NCBI GenBank assembly: GCA_016868305.1
Contig: VGHK01000016.1
Location: 1 to 47,524 of the forward strand
Direction: 5' to 3'
From: Betaproteobacteria bacterium
GTDB lineage: Bacteria; Pseudomonadota; Gammaproteobacteria; Burkholderiales; Burkholderiaceae_A
Length of the DNA stretch: 47,524 nucleotides
Each line of letters begins with the position of its first letter. Position 1 is the first letter of the stretch. Both the position numbers and the translations under genes were made by a program. The notes under the pieces were generated by a model. It was given only the letters and a program-made list of their open reading frames with translations. It was not told the DNA's origin and did no database searches. This document shows positions 6,879 to 13,842 of this stretch, piece after piece.

Positions 6879-8411
6879 CTAAGGCTGCTGGGGATTGGCC
6901 TTAGGCGCCACCGAGAGCCGGTTTAAGGCATTAAGGTAGGCTAGCGCCGAGGCCACCACAATGTCAGGATCGGCTCCCACGCCGTTGACCACCCGACCAT
7001 CTTTCTGCAGGCGCATGGTCACCTCCCCCTGAGACTCGGTGCCAGTGGTGATCGCATTGACCGAAAAGAGCATGAGTTCGGCCCCGCTCTTGGCCTGCTG
7101 CTCTATGGCCTTTACCGTTGCATCGACCGGACCATTCCCCTCGGCCTCGGTGGCAAACTCCTTTCCATCGCAGGCAAAGACCACCTTAGACACGGGACGC
7201 TCGCCCATTTCAGACCGCTGGGCAAGCGAGATGAGCTTGTAGTGCTCGGCCTTTACCTCAGACTCGCCCGAGACAATTGCCTGCAGGTCTTCGTCAAAGA
7301 TCTCCGACTTGCGGTCGGCAAGCTCCTTAAACCGCGCGAAGGCCTCATTAAGCGCCTGCTCGGTTGACGGGGCAATGCCCAGGTCTTCTAGCCGCTGCCG
7401 AAAGGCATTACGCCCAGAAAGCTTACCCAGGGTGATGCGGTTTGCCGCCCAGCCCACATCCTGCGCCCGCATGATCTCGTAGGTCTCCCGGTGCTTGAGA
7501 ACGCCGTCTTGGTGAATGCCGGACTCGTGGGCAAAGGCATTGGCCCCCACGATGGCCTTATTGGGCTGCACCGGATAGCCAGTAATCTGCGAGACCAGTC
7601 GGGAAGACGGCACAATCTGTGTGGTGTCGATATTGGTGTCACAGGCAAAGACATCGCGCCGGGTTTTGACTGCCATGACAATCTCTTCCAGGCTGGCATT
7701 GCCCGCCCGCTCGCCAAGCCCATTGATCGTGCACTCCACCTGGCGCGCCCCGGCGAGCACCGCCGAGAGGGAATTTGCCACCGCCATGCCCAGGTCGTTA
7801 TGGCAGTGGGTGGACCAGACCACCTTGTCTGCGCCCGGCGTACGGGCAATGAGAGTCTCCATAAGCCGGCCCCACTGGCCGGGAACGCTATAGCCCACGG
7901 TATCGGGGACATTAATAGTGGTCGCCCCGGCGCGGATTGCCTCGCCGAAGATTCGCACCAGAAAGTCCACCTCGGATCGCACCGCATCCTCGGCCGAAAA
8001 CTCGATATCGGCGGTGTACTCGCGGGCCATATGAATGGCCGCCACCGCCGCATCGACCACCTGATCGGGGTTCATACGCAGCTTTTTTTCCATGTGGATA
8101 GGGCTGGTGGCAATAAAGGTGTGAATGCGCCCACGGGCTGCGGGCTTAATTGCCTCCCCAGAGGTACGAATGTCGCGCTCGGTAGCGCGGGCGAGCGAGC
8201 AGACAGTGCTGTCTTTAATGGACTCGGCAATGGCACGGACGGACTCAAAGTCGCCAGGGCTGGCAGCAGCAAAACCCGCCTCAATCACATCCACGCGCAG
8301 TCGCTCGAGCTGCCGTGCGATGCGCACCTTTTCGTCTCGGGTCATGGATGCGCCGGGGCTCTGTTCGCCGTCGCGCAGCGTGGTATCAAACACAATTAAT
8401 CGATCGGACAT
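6879..8411 (-). CDS. leuA: 2-isopropylmalate synthase
   Basis: A 510-residue enzyme that condenses acetyl-CoA with 2-oxoisovalerate, the committed step of leucine synthesis. The start is taken at [20 protein letters not shown], the canonical N-terminus; an in-frame ATG ten codons upstream (8441) is less likely. The catalytic barrel shows [12 protein letters not shown] (metal and substrate site), [15 protein letters not shown] (metal-binding histidines) and [11 protein letters not shown]. The C-terminal 120 or so residues match the leucine-sensing regulatory domain. It is the last gene of the ilvIHC-psd-pssA-leuA block but has its own attenuator at 8445-8576, so its expression is probably set separately by leucyl-tRNA charging. 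Confidence 0.97.
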
Positions 8412-8444
8412 GGCTGTCTTCCCTAAGAGAAATATGAACAAAGA

Positions 8445-8485
8445 CTAAAAAATGAGGTCCGCCAGAGAGAGGGCCGGCGCGGACT
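8445..8485 (-). terminator. leuA attenuator: intrinsic terminator (3:4 hairpin)
   Basis: On the minus strand GTCCGC (8484-8479) pairs with GCGGAC (8462-8457) around a pyrimidine-rich loop, and six T follow within four bases. The upstream arm lies within a competing hairpin, CCGGC and GCCGG (8490-8474), which could act as the antiterminator. The terminator sits 20 nt after the leader peptide stop codon and 33 nt before the leuA start. Confidence 0.75.
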
Positions 8486-8494
8486 GCCGGTGGG

Positions 8495-8529
8495 GGGTCG
8501 ATAGTTAGCGCCCGTGGCGCAGTCGACCC
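8495..8529 (-). promoter_or_regulatory. leuA attenuator: pause hairpin over the leader stop codon
   Basis: GGGTCGA (8529-8523) and TCGACCC (8501-8495) form a perfect 7-bp outer stem. An inner perfect stem, GCGCC and GGCGC (8520-8516 and 8512-8508), has a three-base loop. The structure covers the end of the Leu-rich leader ORF, the position of the 1:2 pause hairpin in classical amino-acid attenuators. Confidence 0.65.
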
Positions 8530-8576
8530 AGGGAGGATAGTAGAAGCAGCAGAGAGGCGAGGGGCAAAACGTTCAT
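8505..8576 (-). CDS. leuL: leu operon leader peptide (attenuator peptide)
   Basis: A 23-codon ORF starting with ATG at 8576, nine bases after the pssA stop. It encodes MNVLPLAS, then five consecutive Leu codons (CTG CTG CTT CTA CTA), then SSLGRLRHGR and a TAA stop. Nine of its 23 residues are leucine. It is followed directly by a pause hairpin, a candidate antiterminator and a terminator with a T run, all before leuA. This is the arrangement of ribosome-mediated attenuation: scarce charged tRNA-Leu stalls the ribosome at the Leu run and prevents termination. The ribosome-binding site is weak (AGGG very close to the ATG), so translation may be coupled to pssA. Confidence 0.85.
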   Translation of the reverse strand: MNVLPLASLLLLLSSLGRLRHGR

Positions 8577-8585
8577 TACCCTGAA

Positions 8586-9365
8586 CTATAAATCTTTTCG
8601 CTCGTCATCGGCAAATAGAGAAACGCTGCGGCCGTGGGATTTTTGCCACAGATACATGGCATAGCCAGAGACGGAGTACAGGGCCACCAGCGCGAAAAGC
8701 ATGCTCGGCGGGTCTTGCGAGATCAGCACCAGAAAGACGGCACCGAGGCCGATAAAGATAAAAGGCACGCTTCGGCGCAGATTGGCATCTTTAAAACTAT
8801 AAAAAGGCACATTGCTCACCATCGTGACACCGGCATACACCATCAAGCCCCAGACTACCCAGGCCAGTTCCGAGACGCCCAGATCGATAATCTTGGTCTC
8901 TCGCAGATCGGTAATCAGCCATACAAACCCCGCCACCAGGGCTGCGGCCGCTGGGCTTGGTAGCCCCTGAAAGAACCTCTTGTCGACCACTTCGATGTTG
9001 GTATTAAACCGTGCCAGCCGCAAGGCCGCTCCGGCTACATAGATAAAGGCTGCGAACCAGCCAAGCTTGCCCATGTCCTTGAGCACCCAGACGTAGACGA
9101 TGAGCGCCGGGGCAACGCCGAACGAAACCATGTCCGAGAGGCTGTCATAGTTGGCCCCGAAGTCAGAGGCGGTATTGGTGAGCCGGGCAACCCGACCGTC
9201 GAGACTGTCGAGCACCATGGCCACAAAAATGGCCACGGCCGCCTCGGTAAACTGGCTGCTCATAGCCATTACCATGGCGTAAAAGCCGCTAAAAAGACAG
9301 GCGGTGGTCAAAAGATTAGGCAGCAGGTAGATCGTCTGCCGGCGCCTTTGAGATCGGTCACGCAT
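8586..9365 (-). CDS. pssA: CDP-diacylglycerol-serine O-phosphatidyltransferase
   Basis: A 259-residue integral membrane enzyme making phosphatidylserine from CDP-diacylglycerol and serine. The CDP-alcohol phosphatidyltransferase signature is complete: DGRVARL, then G, D and D spaced as D-G-x2-A-R-x8-G-x3-D-x3-D (in DSLDGRVAR and DFGANYDSLSD). Several hydrophobic helices follow. It lies 25 bp downstream of psd, so the two enzymes that convert CDP-diacylglycerol to phosphatidylethanolamine are made together. The pair sits between ilvC and leuA, a linkage seen in other betaproteobacteria. Confidence 0.96.
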   Translation of the reverse strand: MRDRSQRRRQTIYLLPNLLTTACLFSGFYAMVMAMSSQFTEAAVAIFVAMVLDSLDGRVARLTNTASDFGANYDSLSDMVSFGVAPALIVYVWVLKDMGKLGWFAAFIYVAGAALRLARFNTNIEVVDKRFFQGLPSPAAAALVAGFVWLITDLRETKIIDLGVSELAWVVWGLMVYAGVTMVSNVPFYSFKDANLRRSVPFIFIGLGAVFLVLISQDPPSMLFALVALYSVSGYAMYLWQKSHGRSVSLFADDERKDL

Positions 9366-13472: not shown

Positions 13473-13667
13473 GTTGTTCGGTCCTAAACAGTTCTAGAGA
13501 TCCCTGCCCGCCGGCACCACCCGCTCTCGCTGTTTGCGAGGCCGGCGACACAGACATTGGAACGGGGCCTTTGAGCTGATGGATCGGCGGCACCAAAAGC
13601 CCTTGTGGGGCCGGTACCGTCGGTTCAATCGCAATCACTCAGTTGGTTTGCCTATTGTTTTGGCAAG
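13473..13667 (-). promoter_or_regulatory. Untranslated leader of the ilvI operon
   Basis: About 195 nt separate the predicted transcription start from ilvI. The stretch contains no gene I can support. It does contain hairpin-forming sequence: GCCGGC arms at 13511-13516 and 13542-13547 flanking CTCGC and GCGAG (13526-13540), and GCCC/GGGC followed by TTTT. An open GTG-initiated frame with several Ile, Val and Leu codons (from 13638) runs on into ilvI out of frame and is not a convincing leader peptide. Attenuation is possible but not shown. Confidence 0.4.
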
Positions 13668-13671
13668 CCAA
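13643..13671 (-). promoter_or_regulatory. Inverted repeat at the ilv transcription start
   Basis: TTGGTTTGCC (13643-13652) and GGCAAGCCAA (13662-13671) form ten-base arms with one G-T wobble around a 9-bp centre. The repeat covers the predicted start site of the ilv transcript, so it could be a protein-binding operator or a 5'-end RNA hairpin. No regulator is identified. Confidence 0.4.
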
Positions 13672-13673
13672 AG

Positions 13674-13702
13674 ATGATAGGGCTTGGCCTAGAACAGGTC
13701 AA
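13674..13702 (-). promoter_or_regulatory. sigma70-type promoter of the ilvIHC operon
   Basis: On the minus strand TTGACC (13702-13697) and TATCAT (13679-13674) are separated by exactly 17 bp. Expected start near 13667. It lies back to back with the clpB heat-shock promoter, with 17 bp between the two -35 elements. Confidence 0.7.
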
Positions 13703-13719
13703 ATGAGGGCAGGTAGTGA

Positions 13720-13747
13720 CTTGAATTAACAAAGATCGGCCTCATCT
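13720..13747 (+). promoter_or_regulatory. sigma32 (heat-shock) type promoter of clpB
   Basis: CTTGAA (13720-13725), a 14-bp spacer and CCTCATCT (13740-13747) fit the RpoH consensus (CTTGAAA, 11-15 bp, CCCCATNT). Expected start near 13753, giving a clpB leader of about 90 nt. A sigma32 promoter agrees with the role of ClpB in heat shock. Confidence 0.7.
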
Positions 13748-13842
13748 AAAAAGTCATCCGGAGCCATGGCACGGGGCCGGTTTTCGGCCTGCGTGGCGCG
13801 TAGAAAGCGCTCCCAGTCATTCTGCAAGGAAATAAGGACATC

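Follow-up and report, generated by a model that had tools for sequence, protein, structure and literature searches.

A predicted leucine-responsive leader upstream of leuA in Betaproteobacteria, with a stop-codon hairpin and a family-specific pseudoknot

The leuA gene in a 47,524-nt stretch of betaproteobacterial DNA (contig VGHK01000016.1; "the window" hereafter means this whole stretch, which was the DNA analyzed) is probably preceded by a leucine-responsive cis-regulatory leader that is read as a leaderless message, has a hairpin over the stop codon of its open reading frame (ORF) and, in the window's family, carries a pseudoknot. Comparison with relatives supports the spacing of the promoter, the ORF, the stop-codon hairpin (P1), and the pseudoknot. 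We infer that the leader responds to leucine, which way it switches, and what its output is; the output may be premature termination, by the U-tract in the window species and by Rho or another factor in relatives.

A leucine-rich ORF lies between pssA and leuA

All features of the leader locus lie on the minus strand. The leuA gene (positions 6879 to 8408), which was identified as that for 2-isopropylmalate synthase by NCBIfam models NF002087 and TIGR00973, is presumably the regulated gene. The leader ORF (8576 to 8505), which is predicted to be leaderless, consists of 23 codons plus a stop and encodes MNVLPLASLLLLLSSLGRLRHGR. It follows pssA (8586 to 9365), whose stop codon is 9 nt upstream of the leader ATG, and the neighbors upstream of pssA are psd, ilvC, and the genes for the small and large subunits of acetolactate synthase. 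These NCBIfam assignments confirm the flanking genes named in the original prediction, which had placed a leucine attenuator between a phospholipid gene and leuA. The sequence also bears out the claim of a 23-codon ORF after pssA with five consecutive Leu codons (CTG CTG CTT CTA CTA, 8538 to 8552) and nine Leu codons in total, and it places this ORF on the minus strand, which had been left unstated. For this one ORF, the binomial probability of at least nine Leu among 22 residues, uncorrected for the number of ORFs inspected, is 5.7e-5, given a background of 8.9% Leu in 12 window genes. CTA, which is used twice in the run, accounts for 3.6% of the Leu codons of those genes. The leader peptide ends in GRLRHGR, the form typical of the window's family.

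When the whole window was searched with 4227 Rfam models at the gathering score, two tRNAs were the only matches and nothing was found at the leader. The 20 loci tried of 215 gave no Rfam match at the gathering score, and a search of positions 8300 to 8700 with E values of up to 10 returned a single snoRNA-like chance match (E = 9.8). Leader peptides had no match in NCBIfam (four tried) or Pfam (six tried), peptides this short being hard for profile searches. The fold energy of the whole pssA-leuA spacer was ordinary (z = -0.94), and the fold energies of leader parts were uninformative (z = 0.19 to -1.70). The case for the leader is a comparative one.

Leucine-rich leaders are common upstream of leuA

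One source of the sequences compared was a set of 80 named contigs, chosen as the best among at least 588 candidates and, by their titles, largely from betaproteobacterial genera. The other sources were 26 genomes of the window's family and 300 genomes drawn from the order, with 80 further regions from these. The start of leuA was mapped in 200 of 215 loci, and 195 upstream regions were left after removal of duplicates, locus L001, and off-target loci. A leader was called where the last 16 residues contained at least 3 Leu and a -10 box with at least 4 of 6 matches ended 5 to 10 nt before the start. This gave 110 regions, of which four (L055, L136, L141, and L164) were dropped by eye as implausible. 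The remaining 106 leaders comprised 17 from the window's family and 89 from outside it, three Halothiobacillus loci among the latter. A Leu leader was therefore found before leuA in 106 of 195 unique, mostly betaproteobacterial upstream regions, counts in which species overlap between genomes is possible and the relatives are not statistically independent. Aromatoleum is among the genera with the leader (L013 and L039). The gap between pssA and leuA was shorter than 60 nt in 24 of the 195 regions.

Across the leaders, Leu richness is conserved and the five-Leu run is not. Among the family loci examined, the run is peculiar to the window species; family leaders have 5 to 9 Leu, and those of L091 and L097 have few consecutive ones. 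The leader reading frame is intact in all 17 family loci, at six different lengths. The peptide ends in LRx(A/G)R plus at most two residues in 69 of the 106 leaders (17/17 in the window's family and 52/89 outside it), and the exact end LLLRx(A/G)R, usually encoded by CTGCTGCTGCGCxxCGCGCGCTAA, occurs in 34 of the 89 leaders outside the family. Conservation of the Leu run and hairpins in relatives, on which the original prediction had staked its case, was thus partial: the exact run varies, whereas most family loci retain both the hairpins and a high Leu content.

The element is dispensable, since it is missing from G001, which is of the same genus as the window and has a pssA-leuA gap of only 12 nt, and from the g3 genomes, six of which have gaps of 20 to 23 nt, so that G001 and these six have no room for it; L091, in addition, lacks the pseudoknot described below. 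A model of the element (R1) found one copy per genome in 17 of the 26 family genomes (10/11 in g1, 7/7 in g2, and 0/8 in g3), these 17 being the sources of its own training sequences. With stricter filters, R1 matched 6 of the 300 order genomes, all six of the window's family. Near copies of the element were sought on plasmids, with no match.

A small protein with the motif RxAxYKWR is encoded in the leader's place upstream of leuA in 28 of 65 regions that have room for a leader and no Leu leader, compared with 0 of the 106 Leu-leader regions. The protein is of the type MQLDIERLI.DFGGP..VSRAAIYKWRERGS and is encoded in the 460 nt upstream of leuA; regions that contain it include L025, L026, L126, L137, L142, L148, and L166. 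The L142 protein weakly matches the P22 Cro family of phage proteins, with an E value of 0.00046 that falls below the Pfam cut-off. The Leu leader and this small DNA-binding-like protein seem to replace each other before leuA, possibly in a swap of repressor for leader.

Leu-containing leaders also precede leuA in L043, L048, L054, and L081, which are Halothiobacillus and Guyparkeria records that we presume to lie outside the Betaproteobacteria. A hairpin is found ahead of the leader stop in the first three.

A promoter-like sequence is positioned for a predicted leaderless start

A predicted sigma-70-type promoter (8614 to 8585) lies just before the leader ORF and consists of TTGCCG (8614 to 8609), an 18-nt spacer, and TATAGT (8590 to 8585). 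It was the only hit in a promoter scan of positions 8300 to 8800, with 0.3 expected from shuffles. The -10 box includes the pssA stop codon (TAG, 8588 to 8586) and ends 8 nt before the leader ATG. TATAGT or TATAAT was found 6 to 9 nt from the leader ATG in all 17 family loci. Because the leader criteria already include a -10 box, the promoter test was run, to keep it from being circular, on 82 regions for which Leu content was the sole criterion. Of these, 61 had a TATAAT-like box (at least 5 of 6 matches) that ended 6 to 9 nt ahead of the leader ATG, whereas the same spacing was found at 4.7 per 100 control ATGs of the same regions (n = 362). A -35 match of at least 4 was present in 49% of the 61 boxed regions versus 11% of shuffled sequences. 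Shine-Dalgarno-like sites preceded the leader in 5 of the 82 regions and leuA in 74. In 16 of the 17 family loci, the promoter sits at the end of pssA, where some of its conservation may reflect coding; the L092 promoter is 43 nt past the pssA stop.

On the strength of these sequence patterns, the leader ORF is predicted to have its own promoter and to be read leaderless, with a start at or within about 2 bases of the leader AUG, as judged from the spacing of the box. The idea that leuA shares a transcript with the ilv and psd-pssA genes is probably incomplete, given the conserved promoter-like sequence just before the leader ATG. Since this ATG has no clear Shine-Dalgarno site, sensing may act mainly on leuA's own transcript. 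Translational coupling from pssA to the leader is possible in the window.

A hairpin spans the leader stop codon

In the window, the P1 hairpin over the leader stop (8529 to 8496) has an outer helix of GGTCGA/TCGACC, with full outer arms of GGGTCGA..TCGACCC, and an inner helix of GCGCC/GGCGC. When the family sequences were aligned, 87.0% of cells were paired in the outer helix and 92.5% in the inner helix. Own arms paired better than swapped arms in the family (p = 0.016; explicit arms, placed by hand). A cruder family test went against pairing (0.9987); its fixed offsets miss loci with extra codons, and its arms hardly vary. The inner stem is nearly invariant and therefore says little by covariation. 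Outside the family, a stop hairpin of at least 4 bp was present in 85 of 89 leaders versus 22 to 27 in shuffles, and own arms beat arms swapped between species, with 0 of 3000 permutations reaching the value. The pause hairpin that had been proposed over the leader stop is therefore present in the window, and a stop hairpin is general among the leaders.

An H-type pseudoknot follows P1 in the window's family

A blind search for H-type pseudoknots was performed on 95 nt from about the leader stop in each of the 17 family loci. One and the same pseudoknot, up to one base of register, was recovered in 16 of them, with at most 1 of 60 dinucleotide shuffles doing as well in each case; in L091, the search of these 95 nt gave no pseudoknot. 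In the window, stem P2 pairs CCGGC (8490 to 8486) with GCCGG (8478 to 8474), as indicated by the blind search and the arm-swap test. The second helix, which is also indicated by the alignment, pairs GTCCGC (8484 to 8479), within the P2 loop, with GCGGAC (8462 to 8457). P2 had been described as an alternative hairpin, CCGGC/GCCGG. Its bases are present, but the two helices share no bases and one lies in the other's loop, so that P2 and the GC stem together make one pseudoknot and are not rivals.

Compensatory changes are present in both pseudoknot helices. P2 reads CCGGC/GCCGG in the window, as against GUCGGU/GCCGAC in L083-L086 and GCUGGC/GCCAGC in L087. For the second helix, the window has GUCCGC/GCGGAC, L084 has GCCUGC/GCAGGC, L094 has GUCUGC/GCAGAC, and L092 has GCCCGC/GCGGGC. 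In L093, an extra hairpin is inserted in the first loop and both helices are retained. Own arms paired better than swapped arms in the second helix (p = 0.0023) and in P2 (p = 0.045), the helix arms in the swap tests, like the ends of alignment A2, having been placed by hand. In alignment A2, pairing in the second helix reached 94.8%, and two of its pairs carried double changes. Three of five whole-structure measures on this alignment exceeded all 500 shuffles; the number of doubly changed pairs was reached by 108 of 500 shuffles, and the value for further pair types was reached by 500 of 500. On a quick FastTree tree of LeuA, from which L106 was left out, the double changes are spread over different clades, those of L083-L086 and of L092 among them.

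A pseudoknot common to all leaders was considered and rejected, the best knots outside the family being at varying places. In 26 of the 89 regions there, no more than 1 of 25 single-base shuffles equaled the best knot. The loops of the strong terminator-like hairpins of L069 and L080 can also pair with a downstream stretch.

Proposed mechanism and alternative readings

We propose that transcription would begin from the leader's own promoter, at or no more than about 2 bases from the leader AUG, and that the leader peptide would be translated from the leaderless 5' end. A ribosome slowed at the Leu codons would cover the 5' arm of P1 and keep P1 open, whereas a ribosome completing the leader would let P1 form. 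The state of P1 would then alter the behavior of the RNA behind it, which in the window's family is the H-type pseudoknot. P1 plus the pseudoknot would be expected to mark the leucine-rich, leuA-low state, and a stalled ribosome would open the structure.

Four other readings of the same region were considered. As a classical attenuator, the form originally predicted, the GTCCGC/GCGGAC stem and the T6 run (8452 to 8447) would make an intrinsic terminator, with an antiterminator forming when ribosomes stall. We regard this as unlikely. The stem and the T run are both present in the window, and the stem of L093 is followed by CGTTTTT, but four bases (CTCA) separate the window's pseudoknot from its T run, and the run is not conserved: at least 5 T in a row stand behind the pseudoknot in only these two of the 17 family loci. 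A terminator scan of the window made no call at this site, which a looser scan for a hairpin plus T did report (-11.1 kcal/mol). A hairpin plus T run was found between leader and leuA in 13 of the 106 regions versus 4 to 9 in five shuffle sets. Strong sites of this kind (-17.7 to -22.0 kcal/mol) are present in the spacers of L069 and L080, the strongest outside the window's family, and of L087, where the site is downstream of the pseudoknot and not at it. With strand 1 omitted, the strand 2-strand 3 hairpin was, by our own reading, the predicted minimum in 9 of the 17 family loci, as an attenuator would have it, yet own arms of the competing 2:3 (antiterminator-type) pairing did no better than p = 0.24 against swapped arms, and a classical attenuator does not need P2 to be conserved. 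Of the architecture of ribosome-mediated attenuation, then, the Leu leader and the stop hairpin are conserved and the terminator is not. The rarity of terminator-like sites in the spacers would fit Rho-dependent attenuation, in which a C-rich, G-poor tract after the stop would be a Rho loading site exposed or hidden by the position of the ribosome; this is a possible but doubtful reading. Outside the family, the G-free run after the leader stop had a mean length of 13.1 nt (n = 89) versus 3.5 nt in shuffles of all 106 spacers, and the first ten bases after the stop were 5% G and 49% C. Such a tract would suit Rho and proves nothing. Against this reading, the G-free run has a mean of only 3.8 nt in the window's family, the tract in the window pairs into P1, and a tract of about 20 nt falls short of a full Rho site, which is generally longer.

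The remaining two readings are both improbable in our judgment. In translational control of the kind proposed for the actinobacterial LEU element, the Leu codons would pair with the leuA Shine-Dalgarno site. In the minimum-energy fold of the window, the Leu run does pair with the ribosome site of leuA (-15.8 kcal/mol for the duplex), and outside the family the last nine codons pair better with their own leuA Shine-Dalgarno site than with swapped ones (p = 0.007). However, the pairing of Leu codons with this site was not significant in the family (own versus swapped, p = 0.058), the Leu-run stretch outside the family went in the opposite direction (0.97), and the distance from the pseudoknot to the leuA ATG ranges from 38 to 120 nt in the family. 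The pseudoknot might instead be the binding site of a protein or small molecule, with the ORF secondary, a reading to which we give little credence. The pseudoknot is compact and conserved, and Seliverstov and colleagues judged a regulatory protein likely for the LEU element (PMC1262725). On the other hand, the pseudoknot occurs less widely than the leader ORF and its hairpin, and the loops vary in length and sequence, with an inserted hairpin in L093, so that there is no obvious ligand pocket.

Three candidate pairings were tried and set aside, the results being not significant or inconsistent between groups: the Leu run with the Shine-Dalgarno site of leuA, strand 2 with downstream sequence, and the C-tract with downstream sequence.

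Relation to known systems

The predicted leaderless leader with its stop-codon hairpin has features of several described systems. The enterobacterial leu operon leader has a Leu-codon leader peptide before leuA and hairpins near the stop of that peptide, as does the leader described here. Unlike the enterobacterial leader, the present one matched no leader family of Rfam, either in the window or in the 20 loci tried of 215, has no conserved terminator, and has an ORF that is usually without a Shine-Dalgarno-like site. In tna of E. coli, free tryptophan is sensed through nascent-peptide arrest. The leader described here resembles Rho-dependent tna in having a leader ORF, no clear intrinsic terminator, and, outside the window's family, a C-rich, G-poor stretch, and it differs in its proposed signal, a slowing of the ribosome at Leu codons.

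Among described arrangements, the nearest that we found is the LEU element upstream of leuA in Actinobacteria, which has a Leu-codon ORF and a pseudoknot, with no terminator described in the available part of the article (Seliverstov et al. 2005, PMC1262725); the likeness is one of described arrangement. Leader mutations in the LEU element are reported not to fit classical attenuation (PMC1262725). As in the LEU element so described, a short Leu-codon ORF in the betaproteobacterial leader is followed by a pseudoknot (16 of 17 family loci) and then leuA (PMC1262725). The LEU element belongs to another phylum, and, as far as that text describes it, differs in its base stem between the Leu codons and the leuA Shine-Dalgarno site, which is unsupported here (p = 0.058). 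The constant parts here, again unlike those in the available description of the LEU element, are P1 around the stop codon and the predicted leaderless start. A leaderless trp attenuator, rnTrpL of Sinorhizobium meliloti, is described as ribosome dependent, with an RNA that starts at the leader-peptide ATG (PMC7298713). As presented there, it responds to tryptophan and has a terminator, whereas the present leader concerns leucine and its start site is only predicted (PMC7298713). No description of this betaproteobacterial leader was found among the papers listed in literature searches, as judged by titles and the beginnings of abstracts, with few subscription papers covered.

The leader described here predicts unannotated leucine control of leuA in many Betaproteobacteria. 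A broader reading, which we offer tentatively, is that of a widespread betaproteobacterial leucine sensor without a terminator, in which a leaderless ORF is joined to a stop hairpin read by the ribosome and, in the window's family, to a pseudoknot as the switched part, convergent with the LEU element. If this is so, a leaderless start would restrict sensing largely to leuA's own transcript, leaving out read-through from ilv-psd-pssA. Should the pseudoknot be the switched part, a structure different from the textbook terminator hairpin would report the position of the ribosome. The leader could also bear on the mechanism of the actinobacterial LEU element.

Two further observations were made. 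Outside the window's family, a motif like CCCACAATT(T/C)G recurs within 60 nt after the leader stop, sometimes with GCAGT next, and CCCACA, CACAAT, and ACAATT are enriched there relative to shuffles. Elsewhere in the window, the 370-nt gap at 13473 to 13842, between ilvB and a divergent 873-aa ORF that we take by eye to be clpB-like, contains short ORFs with several branched-chain residues, which are a possible ilv leader candidate.
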